From assembly GCA_017618075.1 (NCBI GenBank), contig JAFZUY010000053.1, positions 26,397 to 90,396 on the forward strand: a DNA stretch of 64,000 nt, given 5' to 3'. The translations under genes were made by a program, and so were the position numbers. Origin of the DNA: Lachnospiraceae bacterium (GTDB lineage: Bacteria; Bacillota; Clostridia; Lachnospirales; Lachnospiraceae). This document shows, piece after piece, positions 51,384-63,890 of this stretch (the stretch's first letter is position 1; every line of letters begins with the position of its first letter). The notes under the pieces were generated by a model. The model searched no databases, was not told the DNA's origin, and saw nothing but the letters and a program-made list of their open reading frames with translations.

Positions 51384-52319
51384 TTACGGCGTTTTAAACT
51401 CAATTTCGTAACAGATTTCATCATCGGGAACGAAATTAATGATACAGTCATACTCTGCATCTTCGGTAAAATCAGCGTCCTTAAAATCAGGCTTAAGATA
51501 TGCAGTAATTGTCTCCCCTGCTTCAAATCCGTCAAAATCTTCGGGTATTACAAGGTAATCACCATAAACACCGACTATTTCAATATCTGCCAGTTTCTTT
51601 CCTTCTTCATTTTCATATACGGAAAGGAATTTGACCGTTACGCTGTCGTTAATTACTCTGCTGTCAGCTTCACGTTCTGTAGGAGCAAGGGATGAAGCTG
51701 AATCCGACTTTGTTCCGTCGAAGTTTTCCATAAGTCCCTGTAAACCTTCAAGCTTATCCTGTCCGAGCGTGAAATCGTAGTCTGAAACAGCATTCTTATA
51801 TTCCTGGGTTGAATCTTCTTCATAGTATTCGGTAGCTTCAGATACAGCCGGTTCATCCCACGTTGCAGCAGCATCGTAATATTCAGTTGCAGCCTCCGCC
51901 GTAGAAGTCGGAGCGGCCGGTGATGCATCATAAGCAAAATTTGCTGTAGTGGTCGGAGCTGACATTTTGCTTCCCATTCCGCCAAGCATCATCATAAAAC
52001 CAACGGGAATAATTACTAAAAGAAGAATTGCTGCCGAAGGAATTGCTACAAATACCCATGCGGGAATTCTGAATTTTTTCTTCTTCTGTGTCTGTGCTTT
52101 TACAGGTTCGTTATCATATGCGTTTACTGCATATTTGTTTGCTGTATTAACTGTATTGTTTTCAGGTTTGTTAAAATTAATAACATTTGAAGCCGGTGTT
52201 TCGTTACCGTCTGTTTTTGCATTTTCTTCTGCGTCGATTGCCGCTTCGATTCTGCCCCAGAGATCGGGCAAATCGTTCATAACGGCTTCTTTATATTCTT
52301 TTGAAAGATCTTTATTCAT
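51384..52319 (-). CDS. Membrane anti-sigma-like protein
   Basis: 311 residues encoded 8 bases into the sigma gene's end. A cytoplasmic N-terminus (about 1-85, with LPDLWGRIEAAIDAE as a helical start) is followed by one transmembrane segment (about 87-112), an extracellular Ala/Thr/Ser/Glu-Tyr-rich stretch, and a compact C-terminal domain. The overlapping position directly after an ECF sigma gene and the single-pass topology are the classic anti-sigma layout. The zinc-binding HxxxCxxC motif is absent, so the class is unclear. Confidence 0.7.
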   Translation of the reverse strand: MNKDLSKEYKEAVMNDLPDLWGRIEAAIDAEENAKTDGNETPASNVINFNKPENNTVNTANKYAVNAYDNEPVKAQTQKKKKFRIPAWVFVAIPSAAILLLVIIPVGFMMMLGGMGSKMSAPTTTANFAYDASPAAPTSTAEAATEYYDAAATWDEPAVSEATEYYEEDSTQEYKNAVSDYDFTLGQDKLEGLQGLMENFDGTKSDSASSLAPTEREADSRVINDSVTVKFLSVYENEEGKKLADIEIVGVYGDYLVIPEDFDGFEAGETITAYLKPDFKDADFTEDAEYDCIINFVPDDEICYEIEFKTP

Positions 52320-52845
52320 AGCCCAACCTCCTTAATTTTTTGATTGCTTCCTGATAGCGCCAGGTTATGGTACCCATAGGCACTCCCAGCGCTTCCGATA
52401 TTTCCGCAAATGTCATATCGGATAGTATCTTCATGCTGACGACCTGCCTTTCTTTTTCCGAAAGAGTGGCGAGTGCTTCGGTTACCGTCATATCTCCTAT
52501 TACTGTCTCTTCGACTTTATCGTCTGCCACGGGCTCTATGCCCTCTTCGATAAAATCGTCTACTGCTACCTGACGTGAATTTTTCCTCACAAAATCAATC
52601 GCCATGTTTCTGGCAATCGTAGCAAGGAAGGTCTTGTGTGAATCCTTTAATTCCATGGTTTCAGCCATGTTATAAAGCTTCACGAAAAAATCCTGTGTCA
52701 CGTCTTCGGCATTTTCTCTCTGACCGACTACACCGTAGATAATAGAATAAATATATCCGAGGTATTCATCGTAAATATCTTTCAGGCCGGACTTGTCTTT
52801 ATTCTTTATTCTGTTGATGCACTCCGAAAACTTTTCCTGAGTCAA
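52312..52845 (-). CDS. ECF sigma factor
   Basis: About 177 residues. Region 2 is visible as DVTQDFFVKLYNMAET and the FLATIARNMAIDFVR part; region 4 as ALGVPMGTITWRYQEAIKKL. Regions 1 and 3 are absent, as in ECF (group 4) factors. The start is placed at a TTG codon (52845) since an AGGAGG lies directly in front of it; the upstream in-frame GTG would leave that ribosome site inside the gene. The gene overlaps the anti-sigma-like gene by 8 bases. Confidence 0.9.
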   Translation of the reverse strand: MTQEKFSECINRIKNKDKSGLKDIYDEYLGYIYSIIYGVVGQRENAEDVTQDFFVKLYNMAETMELKDSHKTFLATIARNMAIDFVRKNSRQVAVDDFIEEGIEPVADDKVEETVIGDMTVTEALATLSEKERQVVSMKILSDMTFAEISEALGVPMGTITWRYQEAIKKLRRLGYE

Positions 52846-52913
52846 GTTTCCTCCTAACTCCACTAAAGATACGAATCAGTTTTATCTTTTTATGGTAATT
52901 TTTTTATTTTTTC

Positions 52914-55739
52914 TTACGGCTCTTTTCCAAACAGGATATTTCCGCCTGTTTTGATGACTACGCCGTCATTATTTTTATATGAATAATCGTTGGTAATGTT
53001 AATATTGCTCCAGTCCGAAGGATGGATTGCAAAACTTACCGTAAATTTATCACCTTTCTTAAGTGACATTGAATCTCCGATTGAGATTACACACTTCTTG
53101 TCACAGTCCGTTCCCGATGCGTCGGAAATACTTCCTGTTACATTGCTTAAAGCTGTATATGTACCGTCCTTTGCATTTACGGCACTGTGATAATTGTCAA
53201 ATACAAATGCATTCTTATTGTCTGCAGTGTAGTAATAAGTAATGGTTGTCTTCGACAAATCAATAGCATCGGAAGAATTGTTCGTAAATTCAATTGTTCC
53301 CGAAACGCTGCTCTTTCCGTCGCCCGTGTATTCAATCTTAACCGCAAGGTCGCCTGTATCGGCTGTTACGTTTGAAGGAGATACGGTTACATTGTTGTTG
53401 TTTGAATTGTTGTTTGAGCCGCCGTTATTGTTATTGCCTGCGTTGTTGTTAGCTGCTCCGCCCGAAGGAATAACGGACTCGCCCGCTTTGTCACCGCTTT
53501 TAGGAGTGGTACCGAATACAAGGGTATCGTTTTCATAAACGGCCATATTCTTTGCCAGGCTTACGCCTCCGCTTGTTAAGCCCGTAAAAGAAGGGTCGTT
53601 TGAATCATCCCATACTCCGTTCTTACTCTTCATGCGGACCTGGATTTCCTGCTTGTAATTGGACTGTCCGCCGGGGTAAAGTTTTCCGTCGTCAAATACT
53701 ACAGAAAGATAATAGATATGGTTTGCTTCATCCCAGACCTTAAGTCCGTCGCATTTTCCGGACTGCATGTAGTTGGTGGTTACTTCGATATCCGAAGCGC
53801 TTCCGCCTGCATCGTAAACTTCCGATAAATCTATAAAATATCTTAATTCAATCTTCTTAGGAACTCTTGCGGGCCAGCCTGTAATATTGTAAACATACGC
53901 TTTTATTTCCACGAAATCGCTGCCCGAAACATTGATTCCGCCATCTGCATAAAGCTCAAGGCCGGGAGTTTCAACCGCACCGAAATCTTTTATGGTCTGT
54001 CCTTTGTACTTTGAATAAAGGTGTGCCAAAAGACCTGTAAAGCCTGCGTTATAATCGCAAGCTACTTCGTTAACCGTATAGTCCGAAACCGTATCGTTGT
54101 ATCCGTCGGAAGCATCGGGACCGCCTACAAGAGCACCGTATAAAATGTGTCTTGCGGGATTGGGCTCGTTCATATTGTCACAGTAAGAACCCTGTGCCGT
54201 TCTGTGGTGAGGGTTCTTGGGATAATTGTTTCCAAAGCCTATCTCAAAAGATCTACCTGTATCGCCGAGCGCATATCCTGCCTGTGAAAGAGCAAAATCC
54301 TCATATGTTTTCTTTTTAGCCGCGCTGCATGTATCTTCTTCCGCATAAATGGATGCGATATAAGCAGTCGTTGTCGCATATCTTAATGAGCCCCAGGAAT
54401 CAAGCCATGCTAGGCCCTTGGGTGTATATGTGATTCTTTCTCCGTCAACGCCTGTCGTCCACCAGTCAAGGTGCTTTTCAACCGCCTGCGAGTACTTGGG
54501 ATCTTCGGTATTTTCTGCCAGAAGCACTGCCGCACCGATATGCACGTCGTCCCAGCACATAGCCCATTTATGGTTCTGGTCTGCTTTTGAATAATCTGTC
54601 TGTGCATTGCTTAAATAAGTCTCATCTCCCGTCGCAATATAAAGCCATGCGCCAGACCATGCGAGTTCATCATAAAAGCCGCTCCAGGAATTATAAAAGC
54701 CGTTTGCTGCTGTATAGCCGGCATCAGACTTTGTATCACGCGCAAATTTGTAAAGGCTCTTGGCATGCTTAAGGCAAAGGTCGCTGTAAGTTTTATCCGT
54801 ATCCTTATAAACGATTGAACATGCTGCAAGTGAAGCTGCGGTCTCTGCGCATACTGCTGAGCCGGGATTCTGCTTTGTAACCTTATATGCAGGTCTGCTC
54901 ATTCTGGTATCAACAACTTCAGCGGGTCCCCACCATGAATGGTCCTGATTGCCGTCTCCGACCTGGTAGTAATAAACTTCGTCCGAAGGATGGCACTTGA
55001 TAAAATAATCATTCGCCCATTTGATATTTGAAAGCGCATATTCAAGCTGTCCCGATTCAACATATGCATCCTTGTCTTCATATACGGACCATGCAAGCAT
55101 TGTAGCGGTATAGGACATCGGAAGATTGAACTTTACATTATCTCCTGCATCATACCATCCGCCCGATAAATCAACTCCGGCATCGGAACCGTCCTTTAAG
55201 CAGGAGTCGCCTCTCCAGTTACATCTAACTTTGTCGGGAAGATCGCCCGAACGCTGGAGCTCATAAAAAAGAAGGGATTTCTGAAGTGCTTCGCCGTAAT
55301 TGTACTTGCCTGTTCCTTTAGTGCCTTCATATCCGCTTCCCTTCTGTGAAAGGTTTCCGGTATCAAGAATGGAATTAACCGGTTTAGAAACGCTTTCGGT
55401 TTCTTCACTTGTTTTCTTCTCGGGTTTTGTTTCTTCTTTTTCTTCTTTTGTTTCTTCCTTGTCTTCTTTGGAATCAACAGAAACTGATGTGTCCGGCTTA
55501 TCGGACACATCAGTTACTTCGCTTTCGATATTGTTTCCGCTTTCTGTAACACCTGTTTCTACGGTTGCCACTTCGGGCGTTTCTGCTTTTTTGCTTTTAA
55601 TCTTTTCGGTGATGGTTATTCCTGCAACAAGAGCAAGTCCGGCTAAAAAAATTACTGCGCCGACAGGAATGCCTATCATCAAAAATTCTTTTATGCTCTT
55701 TTTATTTTCTGCGTTTTCGTCAACGTATGGTTTTCTCAT
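52914..55739 (-). CDS. Membrane-anchored GH9 endoglucanase with two CBM3-like modules
   Basis: 941 residues. A cytoplasmic start and one uncleaved transmembrane segment (about 18-44) are followed by a Glu/Lys/Thr linker (about 50-130) and a GH9 catalytic domain (about 140-590). VDLSGGWYDAGDNVKFN carries the catalytic Asp, NPHHRTAQGS the substrate His, and YTVNEVACDYNAGF the proton-donor Glu. A CBM3c-type module follows (about 605-755; VYNITGWPARVPKKIELRYF), then an Asn-rich linker and a C-terminal CBM3-like module (about 800-935). It should hydrolyse cellulose at the cell surface. It is translationally coupled: its ATG overlaps the stop of the HD-GYP sensor gene as ATGA. Confidence 0.92.
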   Translation of the reverse strand: MRKPYVDENAENKKSIKEFLMIGIPVGAVIFLAGLALVAGITITEKIKSKKAETPEVATVETGVTESGNNIESEVTDVSDKPDTSVSVDSKEDKEETKEEKEETKPEKKTSEETESVSKPVNSILDTGNLSQKGSGYEGTKGTGKYNYGEALQKSLLFYELQRSGDLPDKVRCNWRGDSCLKDGSDAGVDLSGGWYDAGDNVKFNLPMSYTATMLAWSVYEDKDAYVESGQLEYALSNIKWANDYFIKCHPSDEVYYYQVGDGNQDHSWWGPAEVVDTRMSRPAYKVTKQNPGSAVCAETAASLAACSIVYKDTDKTYSDLCLKHAKSLYKFARDTKSDAGYTAANGFYNSWSGFYDELAWSGAWLYIATGDETYLSNAQTDYSKADQNHKWAMCWDDVHIGAAVLLAENTEDPKYSQAVEKHLDWWTTGVDGERITYTPKGLAWLDSWGSLRYATTTAYIASIYAEEDTCSAAKKKTYEDFALSQAGYALGDTGRSFEIGFGNNYPKNPHHRTAQGSYCDNMNEPNPARHILYGALVGGPDASDGYNDTVSDYTVNEVACDYNAGFTGLLAHLYSKYKGQTIKDFGAVETPGLELYADGGINVSGSDFVEIKAYVYNITGWPARVPKKIELRYFIDLSEVYDAGGSASDIEVTTNYMQSGKCDGLKVWDEANHIYYLSVVFDDGKLYPGGQSNYKQEIQVRMKSKNGVWDDSNDPSFTGLTSGGVSLAKNMAVYENDTLVFGTTPKSGDKAGESVIPSGGAANNNAGNNNNGGSNNNSNNNNVTVSPSNVTADTGDLAVKIEYTGDGKSSVSGTIEFTNNSSDAIDLSKTTITYYYTADNKNAFVFDNYHSAVNAKDGTYTALSNVTGSISDASGTDCDKKCVISIGDSMSLKKGDKFTVSFAIHPSDWSNINITNDYSYKNNDGVVIKTGGNILFGKEP

Positions 55740-58700
55740 GATTCTTCCTTGGCCTCAGCTTTTTCTTCTGCTTCTTTAGACTCTTCGTCCTGTTTTTTAT
55801 GGATGTTGTTGATATCATCCATCGATCCGCCGCCCTTATCGTCGGGATCTCTGAATTTACCTTGTTCTACGAGTCTTAAGAAAGCATCAACAACATCTTC
55901 GGTAAGCTGGGTGCCTGATACTTCTTTTATGATGGATACAACCTTTTCGAAATTCATGCGGTTTCTGTAAGGTCTGTTTGAATACATTGCATCAAATGTA
56001 TCCGCAACAGCTATAATCTGAGCGGCTCTGGGAATTTCATCGCCCTTTAATCCATCGGGATAGCCTTTTCCGTCAGGTCTTTCGTGATGCGACCTCGCGC
56101 CTGTCGAAAGTTCGGGCATAATACTGATGTCTTTAAGAACATTGAAGCCCTGAATAGAATGGGACTTAATGAGCGTGAATTCATCGTCGGTAAGTTTTCC
56201 GTTTTTGTTAAGTACTTCTGGCTTGATACCGATTTTTCCGATATCGTGCAAAAGTGCGATATTGTAGTACTTCTCAACGGTATCCTCATCATATCCGAGT
56301 TCTTTCGTCAGCATTGCGGTATACTCTGCAACTCTCGTGGAATGACCTTTGGTATAACGGTCTTTCATATCGATGGTTCGCGCGATTGCTTCGGTCATCT
56401 CTTTGATGAACTGTTTGTTCTCTTCCTGTTTCTTTAGGTAGTTTCTTGTCTTTCTGTGTACTACGTATACAACCAGCTCATAAATTGCAAATACAACAAA
56501 TATACCGATGAGTACATAGAACAAAAGTGTTTCGTGGAAAGCTTTCTGTTTAACAATTGTGACCGAAAGCTCGTTTTCGCCGGGATTTAAGGCATCATCC
56601 AGCTTCATTACAAAGTGGTATGTTTTTCCGCGAAGGTTGGTGTATGTAACGGGCTCAAAATCGGTTCTCGACACAACTCTTTCGTCTTTATCAAAACCTT
56701 CGAGGCAATAAGTAACCTGAGGGTTCATCAGCGAATACGTGAAAACATATCCGAAAATGGTAACTCTGTCCGTATTTGACGGAATCGTTATTACGCCGGT
56801 TTCATCGGGATAAATATCCACACCGTCTGCATCCACAAAGGGAACTGCCATTTTTATATCCACGACATCAGCAAAATCTCTTTCGATATTTACCTTTGAA
56901 ACGCCTGTGGAACCTGCAACATACAAATCTCCGTCTTCGGTCAGTTCGCTGTATGAGTTTGCCGTAGCAACACTGGTAAGTCCGTTAAATATACTGAAAT
57001 ATGAGGGATGGATATCTTCGTTTGCAATAAGATCGTCAACTTTGGTTACATAAATACCGTTGCTGGCGATTACCCACATCTCGCCCTTGCTGTTTTCGAC
57101 CATATCGAAGTTGTTTGAGTAAGGGAAGTTTTTAACCGTTACAACTTCGAAATTCTCGTTCATATACGCAATCGAGTTACTGGTTACTATCCAGTAAAGT
57201 TTTCTCTTCGCATCTCTTTTTATTCTTAATACAACCATTGAGGAAAGGCCTTCCTTTAAGCCTACACCTTCAATATTGTTGCCCTTTTTCACATAAATAC
57301 CGCCGCCGTCGGTACCCATTACTATTTCGCCGTTAAAGCCTTCTGTAACGGTAAGTACTTCGGGATTGCCGAGGCCAGCTTTTGAGTCGATAACTTCTTT
57401 TACGGCAGCCTTGTTATCCAGAACAGCTAATCCGTCGGAACATACAGCGTAAATCGTACCGTCTTCGCATTCATACACGGCTCTGACCTTGTTCGACGGA
57501 AGTCCGTTGGATTTATTGAACGATGTGATGTTTCCGTCGTCATATTTTATGAGGCCAAGGTTGCTGTATGTGGAAATCCAGAGAATATTATCGCTGTCTC
57601 TGATAATGGATCTGATTCTGACACCATCCAAAAGTTTTAAAAGATTGTTGGTATTATCGGGATCCATATCTTTGGGAATATCATATTTTTTTCTGATAAC
57701 CATGTAGGATGCTTTAGTACCGCCTTCAACTGCTATCAGACCTTTGTCGGTTCCCATCAAGAGATACGAATTATAACGCGCAGTAGTATTAACAACCGCT
57801 TCATCAAGTCCGTACTTAGCGAAAATATCCGTAAAACGGTTACGTACGATTTTCAAAACACCCTGTCTGGATGAGGCAAACCACAGATTTCCTTCATAGT
57901 CGGTAATCATCTGATCAATCGAGTTGTTCATCGGAAGATTGTAAATCTGTCTGAATCCCGCATTGTCATAAACGCCGACACCGTTATCCGCACATATCCA
58001 GAGTTTATTATCCAGATATTCAATTGAGTTGACTTTTTTAAGAGGGTCAACTTTTATTTCTTTTATGTTTTTGTCGTTTTTCCAGTCGCCTTTTAACTCA
58101 CCGTAAAAGATACTCGAGTTATCGGTTCCGATGTAAATATATCCGGGATTTTCGGGATCGGGCAAAATGCTGTTTGCATCATTGAAGCCCAAGTTTGATT
58201 CGGTATAAAATCCCGTAACCTTGAGGTTCTGGATGGTAAATATATCGCCTTCCTGCGTGATACCGTAAATAATGCCGGTATTGTCATCCATACGAAGTTC
58301 ATGTATAAACGCATCATTGATATTGTGAGAATCCAGTCTGTACAGATTATGATATTCATCGACGATTTCAATACCGTGCGTGGTGGCTATAAGAATATTG
58401 CCCGCCTTGTCTTCTATAATGCTTCGAACGGAAAGCGACTGTGACGAGTTGATATCTTTATAGTATGTGTACACGCCTTTATCAAGCATTGCGGTTCCGT
58501 TATCGTTCGTTCCTATCCAGAGACGATTCTTACTGTCTACATAAAGAGCCGTGATACTTGCGATACCGCCGGTTGAATCCATTCTTTCGAAAGTATTGCC
58601 GTCATATCTGATAAGACCCGAATAACTGCCTATCCAGATAAATCCCTCTGCGGTTTCCGCTATGGCATTGGCTTCGGATGTCGGAAGTCCGTTGCTGTTG

Positions 58701-58921
58701 TTATAAAGGAACGATGTATAGCCTTCGTTTTGTCCCGTAAATTCTACACTTACGTCATCGTATCCAACACCCGAATGAGTCTTCGCAGACGCCGTATTGT
58801 CAAAGAAAACACCCGTAAAAGAAACTGTCAGAACAAATAAAAGGACCAGACTAAAAAGTCTTTTAGCCCGCTCCATAATAATCCGACGTTTTTTAGAAGA
58901 AAAACGGTAAAAACTTTTCAT
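55736..58921 (-). CDS. Reg_prop/Y_Y_Y sensor with HD-GYP cyclic-di-GMP phosphodiesterase domain
   Basis: 1061 residues. A signal or anchor segment (about 17-46) precedes a long extracellular region of Reg_prop (two-component propeller) repeats such as GFIWIGSYSGLIRYDG and GEIVMGTDGGGIYVK, then a Y_Y_Y domain. A transmembrane helix (about 785-805) leads to a cytoplasmic HD-GYP domain (about 860-1010) with LLHDIGKIGI, SHHERPDGKGYP and VADTFDAM. All metal-binding and GYP residues remain, so it is predicted to linearise cyclic-di-GMP. The propeller probably reads an extracellular carbohydrate or surface signal. GAGGGAATGTT precedes the ATG; an own promoter lies 61 bases upstream. The cellulase gene overlaps its stop. 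Confidence 0.9.
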   Translation of the reverse strand: MKSFYRFSSKKRRIIMERAKRLFSLVLLFVLTVSFTGVFFDNTASAKTHSGVGYDDVSVEFTGQNEGYTSFLYNNSNGLPTSEANAIAETAEGFIWIGSYSGLIRYDGNTFERMDSTGGIASITALYVDSKNRLWIGTNDNGTAMLDKGVYTYYKDINSSQSLSVRSIIEDKAGNILIATTHGIEIVDEYHNLYRLDSHNINDAFIHELRMDDNTGIIYGITQEGDIFTIQNLKVTGFYTESNLGFNDANSILPDPENPGYIYIGTDNSSIFYGELKGDWKNDKNIKEIKVDPLKKVNSIEYLDNKLWICADNGVGVYDNAGFRQIYNLPMNNSIDQMITDYEGNLWFASSRQGVLKIVRNRFTDIFAKYGLDEAVVNTTARYNSYLLMGTDKGLIAVEGGTKASYMVIRKKYDIPKDMDPDNTNNLLKLLDGVRIRSIIRDSDNILWISTYSNLGLIKYDDGNITSFNKSNGLPSNKVRAVYECEDGTIYAVCSDGLAVLDNKAAVKEVIDSKAGLGNPEVLTVTEGFNGEIVMGTDGGGIYVKKGNNIEGVGLKEGLSSMVVLRIKRDAKRKLYWIVTSNSIAYMNENFEVVTVKNFPYSNNFDMVENSKGEMWVIASNGIYVTKVDDLIANEDIHPSYFSIFNGLTSVATANSYSELTEDGDLYVAGSTGVSKVNIERDFADVVDIKMAVPFVDADGVDIYPDETGVITIPSNTDRVTIFGYVFTYSLMNPQVTYCLEGFDKDERVVSRTDFEPVTYTNLRGKTYHFVMKLDDALNPGENELSVTIVKQKAFHETLLFYVLIGIFVVFAIYELVVYVVHRKTRNYLKKQEENKQFIKEMTEAIARTIDMKDRYTKGHSTRVAEYTAMLTKELGYDEDTVEKYYNIALLHDIGKIGIKPEVLNKNGKLTDDEFTLIKSHSIQGFNVLKDISIMPELSTGARSHHERPDGKGYPDGLKGDEIPRAAQIIAVADTFDAMYSNRPYRNRMNFEKVVSIIKEVSGTQLTEDVVDAFLRLVEQGKFRDPDDKGGGSMDDINNIHKKQDEESKEAEEKAEAKEES

Positions 58922-58982: not shown

Positions 58983-59011
58983 ATTTTATCATAAGGGAGT
59001 GTTTTTTTCAA
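58983..59011 (-). promoter_or_regulatory. Promoter of the sensor-cellulase operon
   Basis: On the minus strand TTGAAA and TAAAAT lie 17 bases apart, ending 61 bases before the sensor start. The next base toward the gene continues AT-rich, without an obvious operator. Confidence 0.65.
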
Positions 59012-59029: not shown

Positions 59030-59686
59030 CTAGTTTAAAATACTTGCAAAAAAGGCCCTTACTTCGTGCAAATTCACGAAGATTTTATGACAGAGTTTTG
59101 TTATCTCCTCATCCGGCTGAATGATGTCAGGAACCATCAGAGGTTTTGCCCCCGCTGCATGCGCTGCTTTTATGCCGTTAAATGAGTCCTCAATGATATA
59201 GCTTAACGTCGGATCAACGCCCAGTTTCTCGGCCGCTTCAAGGAAAATCTCAGGATCCGGTTTTGACTTTGTAACCATGTCACCGCCTATTACAACATCA
59301 AAGTAATCAAGTATTCCGGCATCTCTAAGCTGGTTTGTAACGGTTTTTACGTTAGTGGACGACGCAAGCGCGGTTTTGATGCCTTTTTCTTTTAAGAAAC
59401 ATAAAAGTTCATCGACTCCGGTCTTCTTCGGAAGCTTTCCTCCTCCGCAGAGAGTTCTGTACCTTTCGCCGATGACTTTTTTATACTCATCGTAAGGGCA
59501 GTCTTCACCATAGGTCTCAAGGAACAGTTTCTCAGTTGCTCTCTCATTAATGCCTATGCATTTTAAGATCAGTTCATCCATCCCCTGCATATTATTTTCT
59601 TTTGCAAAATCTATCCACAGGTCACAAACGATTCTCTCCGAATCAAATATGACTCCGTCCATATCAAAAATTACCGAATCTATCAT
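59030..59686 (-). CDS. HAD-family phosphatase (beta-phosphoglucomutase-like)
   Basis: 218 residues of the HAD superfamily, subfamily I. Motif I IFDMDGVIFDSE (nucleophile D9, acid D11 by position), motif II ALASST, the lysine in VTKSKPDPEIF (motif III) and the acidic pair in YIIEDSFNGI (motif IV) are complete, with the helical cap domain between residues about 20-85. Beta-phosphoglucomutase, sugar phosphatase and phosphoglycolate phosphatase are all possible; the AASST/KPDPEIF pattern fits the sugar-phosphate group. The LMW phosphatase gene ends 25 bases upstream. Confidence 0.88.
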   Translation of the reverse strand: MIDSVIFDMDGVIFDSERIVCDLWIDFAKENNMQGMDELILKCIGINERATEKLFLETYGEDCPYDEYKKVIGERYRTLCGGGKLPKKTGVDELLCFLKEKGIKTALASSTNVKTVTNQLRDAGILDYFDVVIGGDMVTKSKPDPEIFLEAAEKLGVDPTLSYIIEDSFNGIKAAHAAGAKPLMVPDIIQPDEEITKLCHKIFVNLHEVRAFFASILN

Positions 59687-60328: not shown

Positions 60329-61531
60329 TCAAACGACCTTCGTTACGCGGTTTACTTCCTCTTTGGCATCCTCATAATTTAGATGAGTATAGGTATTAAG
60401 CGTTACGCCTATATCAGAGTGCCCCATCAAATACTGAAGTGCCTTCGGATTCATTCCGGACTTTGCCATATTGGAACAATAGGTATGGCGACACACATGC
60501 GGAGTGATTTTCGGAAGCGGTATTCTGTAAATACTGTTATATTTCTCCAAAATATGCTTGAAATAATGCTCCCAATGAAGTGCATACATGATACTTCCGT
60601 CTTTATCGAAATATAGAAATCCCCAATATCCATCCACCATTGGTTCATTTTTCGGGGGTTTTCGATTCTTAACGATTGTCTTAAAGCACTCCTCAACATC
60701 TTCCGTCATAGGGATAACCCTATTCCCGCAGGCAGTCTTTGTTTCCTCAATGTAGTAACCGATTTTCGCTCTTTTTTGTAATTGATGGTCAATGTGAATG
60801 CAGTGATTTTGGAAGTCCACATCTTTCAACGTCAGTCCGCAAAACTCAGAAATACGCATCCCTGTTTTAAACAGAATATAGATTCCTTCGTAATACTTCG
60901 AAAAATGATTGTCCTCTTTCACAAACTTTAGAAATTTCCGTTCATCTTCCCTGGAAATGGCCTCTCTTGTCACGCTGTCGTTTACAACTACGTCAACCAA
61001 TTGAAATCCAAACGGATTCTTTCTGAGTAAATCATCATCCACTGCCATCTGGAATGCCGGTCGTAAAACTCCTCTGACAGAATGAATGGAACTGAAACTC
61101 TTTCCGTCTTTCTCCTGAAGTTTTATCAGCCAGCATTTCGCATCCGAAATACGTATAGTATCAATTCGCCTGCTACCAAAAGAATCTTTTTTCAACAGAT
61201 TAATTACTGTTCCATATCCGGCCTGCGTAGTAGGTCTTACACCCGTTCTGGTCGAAATATATTTTTCAGCAAGTTCAAGAACAGTCAGATTTCCACCATT
61301 CGATGCGATATTGTCAAACAGATCCGCCTGGATTTGTTTTTCCATTTCGCGTAACGAAGCGGATTTCTTTTTCCCTTCCGGTACTCTGTCGTTATGATCC
61401 AAACGCCAGCTGTAAACAACCTTAACTTTTCCAAAACCGTCAGTATACTTAAAGCGATATCTTCCGTCACTCATCTGGAATTCGCCATTATGTAAAATAC
61501 GTCCTTTGTTATCTCTCCTTTTTTCGCTCAT
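60329..61531 (-). CDS. int: Tn916-family tyrosine integrase
   Basis: 401 residues. The start MSEKRRDNKGRIL and the following DGRYRFKYTDGFGKVK region closely resemble Tn916 Int. A Tn916-type N-terminal domain and a core-binding domain precede the catalytic domain, in which the Arg in KTGMRISEF, the HxxR box in ITPHVCRHTYC, and the Tyr nucleophile in LNTYTHL are present. The start is placed at 61531 for GGAGA upstream. It lies at the left end of a mobilizable element that continues right with xis and mob genes; the boundary is in the roughly 150 bases after the stop. Confidence 0.95.
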   Translation of the reverse strand: MSEKRRDNKGRILHNGEFQMSDGRYRFKYTDGFGKVKVVYSWRLDHNDRVPEGKKKSASLREMEKQIQADLFDNIASNGGNLTVLELAEKYISTRTGVRPTTQAGYGTVINLLKKDSFGSRRIDTIRISDAKCWLIKLQEKDGKSFSSIHSVRGVLRPAFQMAVDDDLLRKNPFGFQLVDVVVNDSVTREAISREDERKFLKFVKEDNHFSKYYEGIYILFKTGMRISEFCGLTLKDVDFQNHCIHIDHQLQKRAKIGYYIEETKTACGNRVIPMTEDVEECFKTIVKNRKPPKNEPMVDGYWGFLYFDKDGSIMYALHWEHYFKHILEKYNSIYRIPLPKITPHVCRHTYCSNMAKSGMNPKALQYLMGHSDIGVTLNTYTHLNYEDAKEEVNRVTKVV

Positions 61532-61630
61532 ATTGCGGTCTCCTTTCAATTAAATCAAAAAGAACCGCCTCATGATATGTTATACCATAATGCGGTCCCT
61601 CTTTCCATAACATTTGCCGTTTTTGATATT

Positions 61631-61652
61631 GAAAAACACCCTTCCCGAGTGT
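61631..61652 (-). terminator. Hairpin after the excisionase gene
   Basis: GAGTGTT and AACACCC form a 7-bp stem with a GGGAA loop, followed by TTTTTC on the minus strand, just past the excisionase stop. It may restrict transcription into the integrase gene. Confidence 0.5.
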
Positions 61653-61655
61653 TCG

Positions 61656-61988
61656 TCAAATAGTCCCGGAACGGTTCAGATATTGTTCAAACAACTCTCT
61701 CTTTATTCTGGTCTGACTGCCGACTTCCATAACAAAATCTTCACCTATATTTTCCGCGACAATTCGTCTTAAACGTTTCTCTCCGATTCCAAAATACTCG
61801 GCTGCTTCTTCAATGGTAAGAAGATATTTATGCCAAATCGGTAAGTGTTCTTTCTTCGTGGATTTAAACGAATTTGCTTCCTTTATCTTGGAATCCAGAC
61901 GCATGATTGCATCATATGCTAATGGCACCATGTAAGGCACTGTCTTGGGTTTTACTGTATATTCCTGTAAATAAACTATCTGTTCCAT
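61656..61988 (-). CDS. xis: Excisionase (Tn916 Xis-like)
   Basis: About 110 residues. The C-terminal half (about 47-108) has the Tn916 Xis pattern with a winged helix: LTIEEAAEYFGIGEKRLRRI then the basic-ending IKRELFEQYL. The N-terminal extension of about 45 residues is additional. Xis bends attachment-site DNA and steers integrase to excision. An in-frame ATG lies 18 bases upstream, but AAAGGAAAAGAAG precedes 61988. It is upstream of int, 124 bases away. Confidence 0.85.
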   Translation of the reverse strand: MEQIVYLQEYTVKPKTVPYMVPLAYDAIMRLDSKIKEANSFKSTKKEHLPIWHKYLLTIEEAAEYFGIGEKRLRRIVAENIGEDFVMEVGSQTRIKRELFEQYLNRSGTI

Positions 61989-62030
61989 AACTTCTTTTCC
62001 TTTCATAATTCCTTATGCTCCAACAGTTTT

Positions 62031-63488
62031 TTAAATCTCGTTCCTTCCGTTCTTGTACTTTGATTTATTACGCATATTTCTGTACGGTTCGGCAATCTGC
62101 TTGTCGAACTTATATGCCTCTTTTGCAAGCCTTCTTGCTTCTTCCAATTCTTTTCGTTTTAAGTCTCCCGCATTCTGTAATTCTAAAGCCCGAGCTTTTA
62201 ACTCTTTAACCGGGATAGTAAAATCAGGATATTTCTCTTTAAGTTCTCTTCTTGCAGCACGGAAAATTGTAAGTTCTTTATCATGTTCTTCTGCGAATCG
62301 TTCTTTCTTCCTGCCTTTGGGAAGTGAATACCATTCCTGATAAACCGGAAGATATTTTTTGAATGCTTCGTAACGTTCCAATATACGATTTATTGATTTC
62401 ATTTCATTATCCATATCCCGCACCTGACTTTGGATGGTTGCTACATTCTCGTAAAGTTTTTTCGAAAGCACCTTAAAATCTTCAATGCAGGTAATCTTAT
62501 TGTTCTGAATAAATTCAATTGCCTCAACATATGCTTTAACCTTTGAAACCTTTCCGTATTTCTTTCCGTGACTGACACTGTAATTATGCAGTGCAACTTC
62601 CAAATCAAGAGCGTCCATTTCTTTTTGGGACTTATCCGACTCATACTCCTTATACTTTTCGAGAACCGAATCAATGATAGTTTTTATCTTCCTGATTTCC
62701 GAATTGATCCATTTGACTAACCGGTTCCAATCTCCGATATCCGTCGTGATTCCCTTTTTCTCCATTGCTCTTACCTTCGGTCCTTCGTGAACCTGCGGAA
62801 TATAATCTTCTCCCATGCTTTCAAACGATTGATGAGTAACTCTCTCGGTTATCCCTTGTTCTTCGAAAGCCGCATTGATACATTTCGCCCAGTTTTCTCT
62901 CCAACGATTTAAAGTATCCGGATCACTCCAGTCCGTTGTCTTAACCGCGTTAAAAATGTATTTGCCATCAGAACCACGAATTCGATTTCCGTCTTCATCT
63001 AGAATGTATTCTCTTCTCTGTTTCTCTCCCCAGGTCCCGTCTTCATTAAGCGGTCTCATCGGAACCATAACATGAACATGCGGATTTTGCGGCCCCCCTT
63101 CTTTATCCGGAGCATGAATCGCAATATCACAAATCATTCCCCTGCTGACGAAATTTTCCATAATAAACTTCCTGGCCATTGCTATATTTTCTTCTTCCGA
63201 CAATTCATTTTGGAGCGCAAAATCAAAAGAGAACGCAAGCTGCGCTCTCTTATTTTTCTCTGCGAACTCAACCGCATTCCATAATGTTTCTCTGTCGGAG
63301 TATTCCTTCGGAGCATGTTTCGGCAACATAATTTCTGTATGAATCACACCTCCCTTTTTTGTATAATCCGGATCTTCCCCGTAATAAGAATCATGAATTT
63401 TTTCTCCGGCCCGGTAAGCTGCCGCAGCACAAACCGACTGTCCTTTTCCTCTTGAAATCTGTGTAACATGAAAATGATACAGTGACAT
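62031..63488 (-). CDS. MobQ-type (MobA/MobL) relaxase
   Basis: 485 residues. The relaxase domain covers about 1-220: an N-terminal MSLYHFHVTQISRGKGQS start typical of MobA/MobL, AAAAYRAGEKI, and the metal-binding HxH in NPHVHVMVPMRPL with a catalytic Tyr in the N-terminal part. The C-terminal half is a basic/acidic coiled region. It nicks the transfer origin and leads the strand into the recipient, using a helper's type IV secretion system. Its ATG overlaps the stop of the accessory gene by one base (TAATG). Confidence 0.92.
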   Translation of the reverse strand: MSLYHFHVTQISRGKGQSVCAAAAYRAGEKIHDSYYGEDPDYTKKGGVIHTEIMLPKHAPKEYSDRETLWNAVEFAEKNKRAQLAFSFDFALQNELSEEENIAMARKFIMENFVSRGMICDIAIHAPDKEGGPQNPHVHVMVPMRPLNEDGTWGEKQRREYILDEDGNRIRGSDGKYIFNAVKTTDWSDPDTLNRWRENWAKCINAAFEEQGITERVTHQSFESMGEDYIPQVHEGPKVRAMEKKGITTDIGDWNRLVKWINSEIRKIKTIIDSVLEKYKEYESDKSQKEMDALDLEVALHNYSVSHGKKYGKVSKVKAYVEAIEFIQNNKITCIEDFKVLSKKLYENVATIQSQVRDMDNEMKSINRILERYEAFKKYLPVYQEWYSLPKGRKKERFAEEHDKELTIFRAARRELKEKYPDFTIPVKELKARALELQNAGDLKRKELEEARRLAKEAYKFDKQIAEPYRNMRNKSKYKNGRNEI

Positions 63489-63805
63489 TACCCGTCCACC
63501 TCCTCTACTGATTTGATTTCAAACCGATCAACGTACTCCTGCACTCCCGGAACATTTTTTAACCCGTCTGCAAACAGAACAAACTGAGCGTTGTTCATAT
63601 TTTTCAATTTTGGAAAAAGATATTCCAGGTGGGCTGCCTTAAAACAAAGACTGTGTGTTCTTTGTTTCCTTTGCCTGTTCTCTTCCCTCTTGACTTTGTT
63701 TTCTTTTCGATTAACTCCGCGTTTGGTTTGTTCGATCTGAAGGTGCAAATCAGAAATCTCTTTTCTTAATTTTTCGATTTCATTACTCATTTTTTCTTTC
63801 GCCAT
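63488..63805 (-). CDS. Mobilization accessory protein (DUF3847-like)
   Basis: About 105 residues, mostly charged. A coiled-coil N-terminal region (about 5-45) with IEKLRKEISDLHLQIEQT is followed by a basic KREENRQRKQRT stretch and a compact C-terminus. DUF3847 proteins precede MobA/MobL genes in Clostridial mobilizable elements and likely aid relaxosome formation. The start at 63805 follows AAAGGAG; the frame continues upstream but would cross the IS boundary. Confidence 0.75.
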   Translation of the reverse strand: MAKEKMSNEIEKLRKEISDLHLQIEQTKRGVNRKENKVKREENRQRKQRTHSLCFKAAHLEYLFPKLKNMNNAQFVLFADGLKNVPGVQEYVDRFEIKSVEEVDG

Positions 63806-63833
63806 TTTCAATCTCCTTTCGATTTTGGGGCAT

Positions 63834-63852
63834 AAAAAAAGCACCCTGCTTT
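63834..63852 (-). terminator. Short hairpin upstream of the accessory gene
   Basis: AAAGCA/TGCTTT with a three-base loop, followed by seven T on the minus strand. It sits 29 bases before the accessory gene start and may be a leader attenuator or a truncated remnant of an older upstream gene's terminator. Confidence 0.45.
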
Positions 63853-63890
63853 GTTTGCAATGAGGTGACCCCAAAAAGTTAGACTTTTTA

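Follow-up and report, generated by a model that had tools for sequence, protein, structure and literature searches.

A predicted HD-GYP phosphodiesterase with a propeller sensor, encoded directly before a GH9 cellulase in one clade of Lachnospiraceae

Why should a gene for a putative cyclic diguanylate (c-di-GMP) phosphodiesterase with an outside sensor stand directly before a gene for a cellulase? The question is raised by a locus in a stretch of 64,000 nucleotides (nt) from a Lachnospiraceae bacterium (assembly GCA_017618075.1, contig JAFZUY010000053.1, positions 26,397–90,396), called the window below; the source genome is a 2.4-Mb draft that is 89% complete. To our knowledge, the link between the digestion of plant polymers and sticking to them is poorly known in fibre-degrading gut Clostridia. 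The pair formed by the sensor gene and the gene for a cellulase of glycoside hydrolase (GH) family 9 is real, is conserved inside one clade and brings known parts together in an unusual combination. The explanation preferred here, to which we would give an even chance, is that a transmembrane sensor of the kind found in hybrid two-component systems (HTCS), with a c-di-GMP phosphodiesterase as its output, is co-expressed with the cellulase and tied to riboswitch-controlled attachment.

The sensor matches the Pfam families Reg_prop (PF07494; E 1.1e-23, 80.7 bits against a gathering score of 20.4), HD_5 (E 3.7e-30, amino acids (aa) 846–1004) and HD (E 2.1e-19), and its hydrophobic stretches at aa 20–44 and 793–823 give a layout of outside sensor, membrane passage and inside enzyme. 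No match to Y_Y_Y was obtained in the window sensor even at E≤10; among three scanned propeller homologues, two do match the profile at the corresponding position (L161, E 7.3e-10, and L072, E 1.2e-6, not L078; loci are given as L numbers, genomes as G numbers and contigs as C numbers), so the Y_Y_Y label is based on homology. An earlier note on this DNA had described a Reg_prop/Y_Y_Y/HD-GYP protein of 1061 residues, a description that stands for the Reg_prop and HD-GYP parts with their intact residues, and for Y_Y_Y by homology only.

The outside part of the sensor matches solved structures of Bacteroides HTCS sensors (PDB 4a2l, 3v9f, and 3ott). According to the part of the source consulted (PMC3243724), HTCS proteins of Bacteroidetes likewise have a large outside Reg_prop propeller and YYY sensor with a membrane pass, bind oligosaccharides derived from polysaccharides, and are usually encoded beside the polysaccharide genes that they serve. 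The window protein differs in its HD-GYP phosphodiesterase output, in having no histidine kinase, receiver or HTH/DNA-binding domain in a Pfam scan, and in its phylum; the comparison with Bacteroidetes drawn in the earlier note fits the sensor half, and the source organism belongs to the gut Clostridia. Reg_prop and Y_Y_Y sensors are also tied to c-di-GMP metabolism in GdpX2 and GdpX3 of Xanthomonas oryzae, which differ in belonging to the GGDEF group rather than to HD-GYP, in their phylum, and in having no cellulase partner in the consulted part of that report (PMC6637768). In two further loci (L078, G304:C1, and L269) a propeller protein of about 1418 aa with a kinase output, assigned by Pfam for L078 and by motif only for L269, lies directly after an HD-GYP-motif protein of about 717 aa, so that one kind of sensor is found with each of the two outputs in neighbouring genes.

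The enzymatic half retains the motifs GHSTRVAEY (859), HDIGK (892), HHER (945), GYP (953), ADTFDAM (973), and RPYR (983). Its key His, Asp, GYP, and RxxR residues are invariant in alignments of 21 sequences (A1) and of 46 sequences including its own (A2), in agreement with the intact metal and GYP residues of the earlier note; because the patterns VADTFDAM and KDxYT[NK]GHS served to gather A2, though not A1, conservation of those two motifs in A2 is partly by construction. The enzymes PmGH (4mcw), V-cGAP3 (5z7c), and 4r8z align with the whole domain and share HDIGK, HHE, GYP, FDA, and RPYR with it, the window protein differing from them in that its input is a propeller sensor. In KDxYTxGHS the sensor family has Tyr where PmGH has a Glu that we take to serve the metal centre, so a two-metal rather than a three-metal centre is likely. 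The RxxR of the sensor reads R983-P-Y-R986, and RxxR/K is described, in the part of the source consulted, as a motif that recognizes guanine and matters for specificity towards c-di-GMP (PMC10882959). Judged by these residues, the domain probably hydrolyses c-di-GMP. The nearest solved enzyme is nevertheless V-cGAP3, a phosphodiesterase of 3'3'-cyclic GMP-AMP (3'3'-cGAMP), at 1.9e-57 and ahead of PmGH at 1.5e-45, and the domain might instead act on that or another cyclic dinucleotide, or be regulatory and non-catalytic; with all motif residues and RxxR kept, and with 19 GGDEF matches and c-di-GMP-I riboswitches in the same genome, we hold this to be distinctly improbable.

The gene that follows the sensor encodes a GH9 protein (E 8.6e-149, 497 bits in Pfam) whose closest solved structure is Cel9G (1g87), a clostridial GH9-CBM3c endoglucanase, with which it aligns at aa 144–746 over the catalytic domain and CBM3c. 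GGWYDAGD and NEVACDYNAGF, which we assume to belong to the catalytic site, are retained. Compared with Cel9G, the window protein has in addition a hydrophobic anchor at its N terminus and one more CBM_3 stretch at its C terminus, and no dockerin was found in it by Pfam. Its one N-terminal hydrophobic segment (aa 15–47) fits a signal anchor, and the cellulase is probably held at the membrane, much as the earlier note had it, cleavage of the segment being less likely.

How firmly the two genes belong together was judged in 31 genomes of the genus, among which the sensor is matched at E≤1e-100 in 21 and GH9 at E≤1e-60 in 30. The sensor adjoins GH9 in 11 of the 31 (the source genome, G411, G407, G402, G417, G419, G397, G408, G416, G415, and G403; the sensor of G419, cut by a contig start, is counted), and in G420 both genes lie at contig ends, which is consistent with adjacency. 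The other nine genomes with a sensor match (G120, G406, G421, G425, G418, G399, G401, G409, and G410) carry the sensor or a more distant homologue away from GH9, to the extent that their contigs allow this to be judged. No sensor match at the same threshold was found in G424 (86% complete), where GH9 lies at a contig end, or in G412, which has the order LMWP-HAD-GH9-sigma with the HAD gene directly before GH9. Within the adjacency clade the identity of the sensors falls to about 61%; the HAD gene lies upstream of the sensor in 9/9 clade genomes with sequence there, the source genome included (G403 and G419 are cut), and the sigma gene comes next after GH9 in 11/11.

Both gene trees point to one origin of the pairing. 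In the sensor tree (37 rows) the ten complete adjacent sensors and that of G420 form one clade (100/100), whose sister consists of sensors from the genus that do not adjoin GH9 (99/99 at the fork uniting the two); in the GH9 tree (26 rows) the adjacency clade has 13 rows, G420 and G424 among them, at 100/99, with G412 as its neighbour or sister. Both trees were drawn with midpoint roots. Read most simply, they indicate that the sensor was probably gained once between the HAD and GH9 genes, in the ancestor of part of the genus, and then retained, the alternative being a loss in G412.

Among the non-adjacent members of the genus, the gene next to the sensor in G421 (L157, 8909–11395) matches internalin-J-type leucine-rich surface proteins. 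In G410, G409, and G401 (L159, L160, and L161) a sensor homologue of about 35% identity follows genes that we take, by their N-terminal sequences, to be like flgK, flgL, fliW, and csrA, which points to a motility setting for that branch. In other genus members (L197–L202) GH9 ends an ABC/MoxR/W37755 gene block, and in the clade of the window GH9 starts the same block.

At the junction itself, the earlier note had seen translational coupling through an ATGA overlap. The overlap is present in the window, but strict coupling is not supported by comparison: with start codons assigned from the frame and the similarity of the N termini, the distance counted from the last base of the sensor stop codon to the GH9 start is −4 (source genome and G411), −1 (G402), −17 (G397), −14 (G408), +6 (G416), +15 (G417), +17 (G415), +20 (G407 and G419), and +23 (G403), so that 5/11 pairs overlap to some extent and the remaining six are separated by at most 23 nt. 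With the exact ATGA in only 2/11, it was rejected as a conserved device. The promoter that the note placed upstream of the sensor fares better, since a TTGnnn-17-TAaAAT/TATAAT pair was seen by eye before the sensor in 10/10 clade genomes with sequence there, the source genome included; promoter-like sites overall are in no excess (14 against 17.3, sd 4.2, in shuffles). The start codon of the sensor lies 6 nt downstream of a gaggg run. The sensor and GH9 are probably expressed together from this promoter, and the sigma gene and its overlapping partner may possibly share the transcript of GH9.

Beyond the clade, sensors of this kind are common in their bacterial group. Sensor residues 308–1061 are matched in 323 of 397 genomes of the family, many through the HD-GYP part alone, and at least 29 of the 397 (the source genome included; a lower bound, with two candidates scored per genome) reach at least 43% identity over at least 715 of those 754 residues. 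From named genomes, the best 80 of at least 587 confirmed relatives were kept, with a full gene in 79 of the 80 loci; they come mostly from metagenome-assembled genomes (MAGs) that bear the names Lachnospiraceae, Ruminococcus, Eubacterium or Clostridia, many of them from rumen or gut, and not from Bacteroidetes. A GH9 of the window's type stood beside the sensor in none of 40 family neighbourhoods or of these best 80 named loci, and any GH9 next to the sensor in 0/128 scanned loci outside the clade. When two GH9 types were sought by tblastn over 139 loci of sensor relatives, including some HD-GYP-only or sister-subfamily proteins and many cut by contig ends, an adjacent GH9 was found in ten clade loci only; G120, of the same genus, has a CelD-type GH9 4.8 kb from the sensor on the other strand. 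GH9 of the window's type occurs at E≤1e-60 in 13/397 family genomes, and 12 neighbourhoods of other family GH9 genes held no sensor; in two of the 12 (L104 and L105) a short HD-GYP protein lies 3–4 kb from GH9. On these counts, a general association of sensor and GH9 in the family was rejected.

The genes that do follow these sensors were collected from 81 deduplicated loci, 77 of which have a downstream gene: 35 lay on the same strand within 100 nt, one (L268) was dropped for a masked run, and two with wider gaps (L044 and L059) were scanned as extras outside the resulting 34. Upstream genes, 30 drawn at random from 50 eligible under a looser limit of 250 nt, served for comparison. Downstream products include GGDEF or EAL proteins, four DcuC transporters, an elongation-factor-G-like protein, PrmA, a methyl-accepting chemotaxis protein and, presumably, a histidyl-tRNA-synthetase-like protein (L039). 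Enzymes of c-di-GMP type (GGDEF, EAL, and HD_5) make up 4/34 downstream and 4/30 upstream genes. Glycoside hydrolases account for three of the 34, namely GH43 (L052), GH3 (L210), and a GH5 cellulase whose gene begins 15 nt after a sensor orthologue in a Eubacterium MAG (L250), and for 0/30 upstream, a hint that falls short of significance (one-sided Fisher test, about 0.14). The search for Reg_prop HD-GYP proteins beside GH genes that the earlier note proposed yields GH9 in one clade and elsewhere only single cases, and the unrelated neighbours that the note said would tell against it are found outside the clade and not inside, where 11 genomes keep the pair.

Such neighbours invite the view that the pairing is an accident: the sensor would have landed before GH9 and supplied a promoter, its ligand and output would have nothing to do with cellulose, and the order would have been kept with the block. 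Most relatives indeed have other neighbours, the pairing has one origin only, and G412 carries the locus without the sensor; gene order alone is weak evidence of joint function, because the HAD and sigma genes are kept as faithfully as GH9. Pulling the other way, 11 of the 13 rows of the GH9 clade have the pair and the remaining two, G420 and G424, are cut by contig ends (though G424 has no sensor match); the gaps have stayed small or negative while sensor identity fell so far; and orthologues stand, singly and independently, close before GH5, GH3, and GH43 genes. We regard an accident as a serious possibility, somewhat short of even.

A wider coupling is found in a sister subfamily of propeller HD-GYP proteins of about 1200 aa, about 34% identical to the window sensor, of which the one scanned (L072) has Reg_prop, Y_Y_Y, and HD-GYP. 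In 28/32 loci of this subfamily (L067, L071, L072, L261–L266, L272, L278, L325, L326, L328–L332, L334–L336, and L338–L344) the gene directly downstream encodes a match to the Bmp/PnrA-type protein of L072, and in 22 of them the two genes overlap by 4 nt when the first start is called. A genome may be represented more than once among the 32, L333, one of the four exceptions, is truncated by a contig end, and Pfam PF02608 was checked on two of the proteins. Sister sensor and binding protein are a conserved pair. If the window sensor likewise worked with a binding protein, its signal would be a small molecule, perhaps a nucleoside, which we assume to be the ligand of Bmp/PnrA-type proteins, and not a glycan; since no Bmp-type gene was seen beside the window sensor or in the clade neighbourhoods viewed, and the sister is so distant in identity, we think this improbable. 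Identifying the ligand in either the window sensor's family or the sister subfamily would open a whole sensor class.

What a change in c-di-GMP might do was judged from the genome. Beside the GGDEF matches, the source genome has one Reg_prop protein, seven other open reading frames (ORFs) that match the HD-GYP part of the sensor, and three c-di-GMP-I riboswitches (L305, L306, and L307, on C20, C42, and C13). The three precede genes for proteins of 721, 1189, and 975 aa, each of which carries List-Bact repeats and, at the C terminus, LysM; by eye, these proteins have signal-peptide-like starts and a hairpin with a T-run apparently follows each riboswitch. Among c-di-GMP-I matches, the following genes were viewed for 20 of 56, with six proteins scanned against Pfam: in G402 a riboswitch stands before a prepilin-like gene (N_methyl), with a near-identical one in G407, and in G417 the following genes encode a DUF4214 protein and an RHS-repeat protein. 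c-di-GMP-II riboswitches were found in 0/31 genomes, which is no proof of absence, as no control genome gave a signal either. PilZ gave no match in the draft source genome or in G407; G402, G411, G417, and G419 have one each, so the absence may be a draft gap. Flagellin gave no match in the source genome, G402, G407, G411, G417, or G419, and is present in five adjacent-pair genomes (G397, G403, G408, G415, and G416). Swimming was therefore rejected as the output for the source genome's own branch only. Because the riboswitches precede List-Bact/LysM proteins and neither PilZ nor flagellin is matched, surface attachment is a plausible output, through which a change in c-di-GMP would alter the cell surface. 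The c-di-GMP regulon of Clostridioides difficile, where c-di-GMP is likewise reported to alter the surface, also has several riboswitches reading c-di-GMP in a clostridium, with no Reg_prop HD-GYP sensor in the part of the source consulted (PMC6200980).

On the explanation preferred here, an outside ligand would alter the phosphodiesterase activity that the propeller and Y_Y_Y-type sensor controls through its membrane helix, the resulting c-di-GMP level would be read by the riboswitches before large surface-type proteins, and the cell would thereby couple its attachment state to cellulase production. Several observations weigh against it. Conservation of the sensor is also good in relatives where the genes beside it are unconnected with cellulose, most neighbours of orthologues outside the clade are unrelated, and the excess of GH genes behind them is not significant; with so many relatives beside other genes, a cellulose-derived ligand is a guess, and the propeller sequence gives no sign of glucan binding. 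The seven other HD-GYP-matching ORFs mean that this sensor need not dominate the c-di-GMP pool, GH9 is so much more widespread in the genus than the sensor that the cellulase works without it, and the flanking HAD and sigma genes are as well kept as GH9. In G120 and G406, the best riboswitch stands about 405 nt before an ABC-transporter-like operon and not before a surface protein.

A broader proposal, which we put forward as doubtful speculation, is that gut and rumen Clostridia have a large undescribed class of one-protein propeller-HD-GYP enzymes that read fragments of extracellular polymers and switch riboswitch-controlled attachment, here welded to a cellulase. If so, these enzymes would do for c-di-GMP what HTCS do for transcription in Bacteroidetes. 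A literature search returned nothing on propeller-HD-GYP proteins in Lachnospiraceae or on an HD-GYP-cellulase link in the rumen; the 2022 survey of HD-GYP proteins by Galperin and Chou may list the architecture, so "undescribed" is provisional. Newly seen here are the pairing in 11 genomes with one apparent origin, the sensor-less sister locus, the absence of an adjacent GH9 from the 128 loci outside the clade, the variable spacing, and the c-di-GMP inventory of the source genome with its riboswitches before List-Bact/LysM proteins. The locus offers a testable chain from an outside propeller through c-di-GMP hydrolysis and a riboswitch to surface proteins of wall type, and the cellulase is probably transcribed together with the sensor.

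Table 1. Features of the sensor–GH9 locus, in window coordinates.
Feature	Position	Strand	Remarks
Sensor gene	55736–58921	−	ORF, 1061 aa: N-terminal hydrophobic segment, propellers, Y_Y_Y-like region, transmembrane helix, HD-GYP
Sigma70-type promoter-like site	58983–59011	−	TTGAAA-17-TAAAAT; between HAD gene and sensor
First hydrophobic segment of sensor	58790–58864	−	aa 20–44; signal peptide or anchor
Outside propeller region of sensor	56852–58714	−	About aa 70–690, Reg_prop repeats; limits approximate
Y_Y_Y-like region of sensor	56552–56749	−	About aa 725–790; by homology only
Transmembrane helix of sensor	56453–56521	−	About aa 801–823, in hydrophobic stretch 793–823
HD-GYP domain of sensor	55910–56386	−	aa 846–1004; metal-site and GYP residues and RxxR present
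ATGA overlap	55736–55739	−	Sensor stop overlapping GH9 start codon; Shine-Dalgarno-like aaggaag just upstream
GH9 cellulase gene	52914–55739	−	941 aa; hydrophobic aa 15–47, GH9 aa 148–571, two CBM_3 stretches
Sigma factor gene	52312–52863	−	Sigma70_r2/r4, ECF-like; 50 nt past GH9
Gene overlapping sigma gene by 8 nt	51384–52319	−	Anti-sigma-like by position only
HAD hydrolase gene	59030–59686	−	Upstream of sensor

The protein encoded at 51384–52319 had no Pfam or PDB match, and a sigma gene with an overlapping partner of this kind follows GH9 in all 11 clade genomes. The window gave no Rfam match at gathering score. A scan found a 14-pair hairpin (AACTGATGTGTCC...GGACACATCAGTT) at 55482–55515, within the coding region of the GH9 linker, that is terminator-like in the − direction. 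Just upstream of the LMWP-HAD-sensor genes starts a region with a Tn916-type integrase (60329–63874, by Pfam), beside which we take excisionase and relaxase genes to be apparent; such an integrase is absent near the locus in G402 and G417, cut in G408 and also present in G407.

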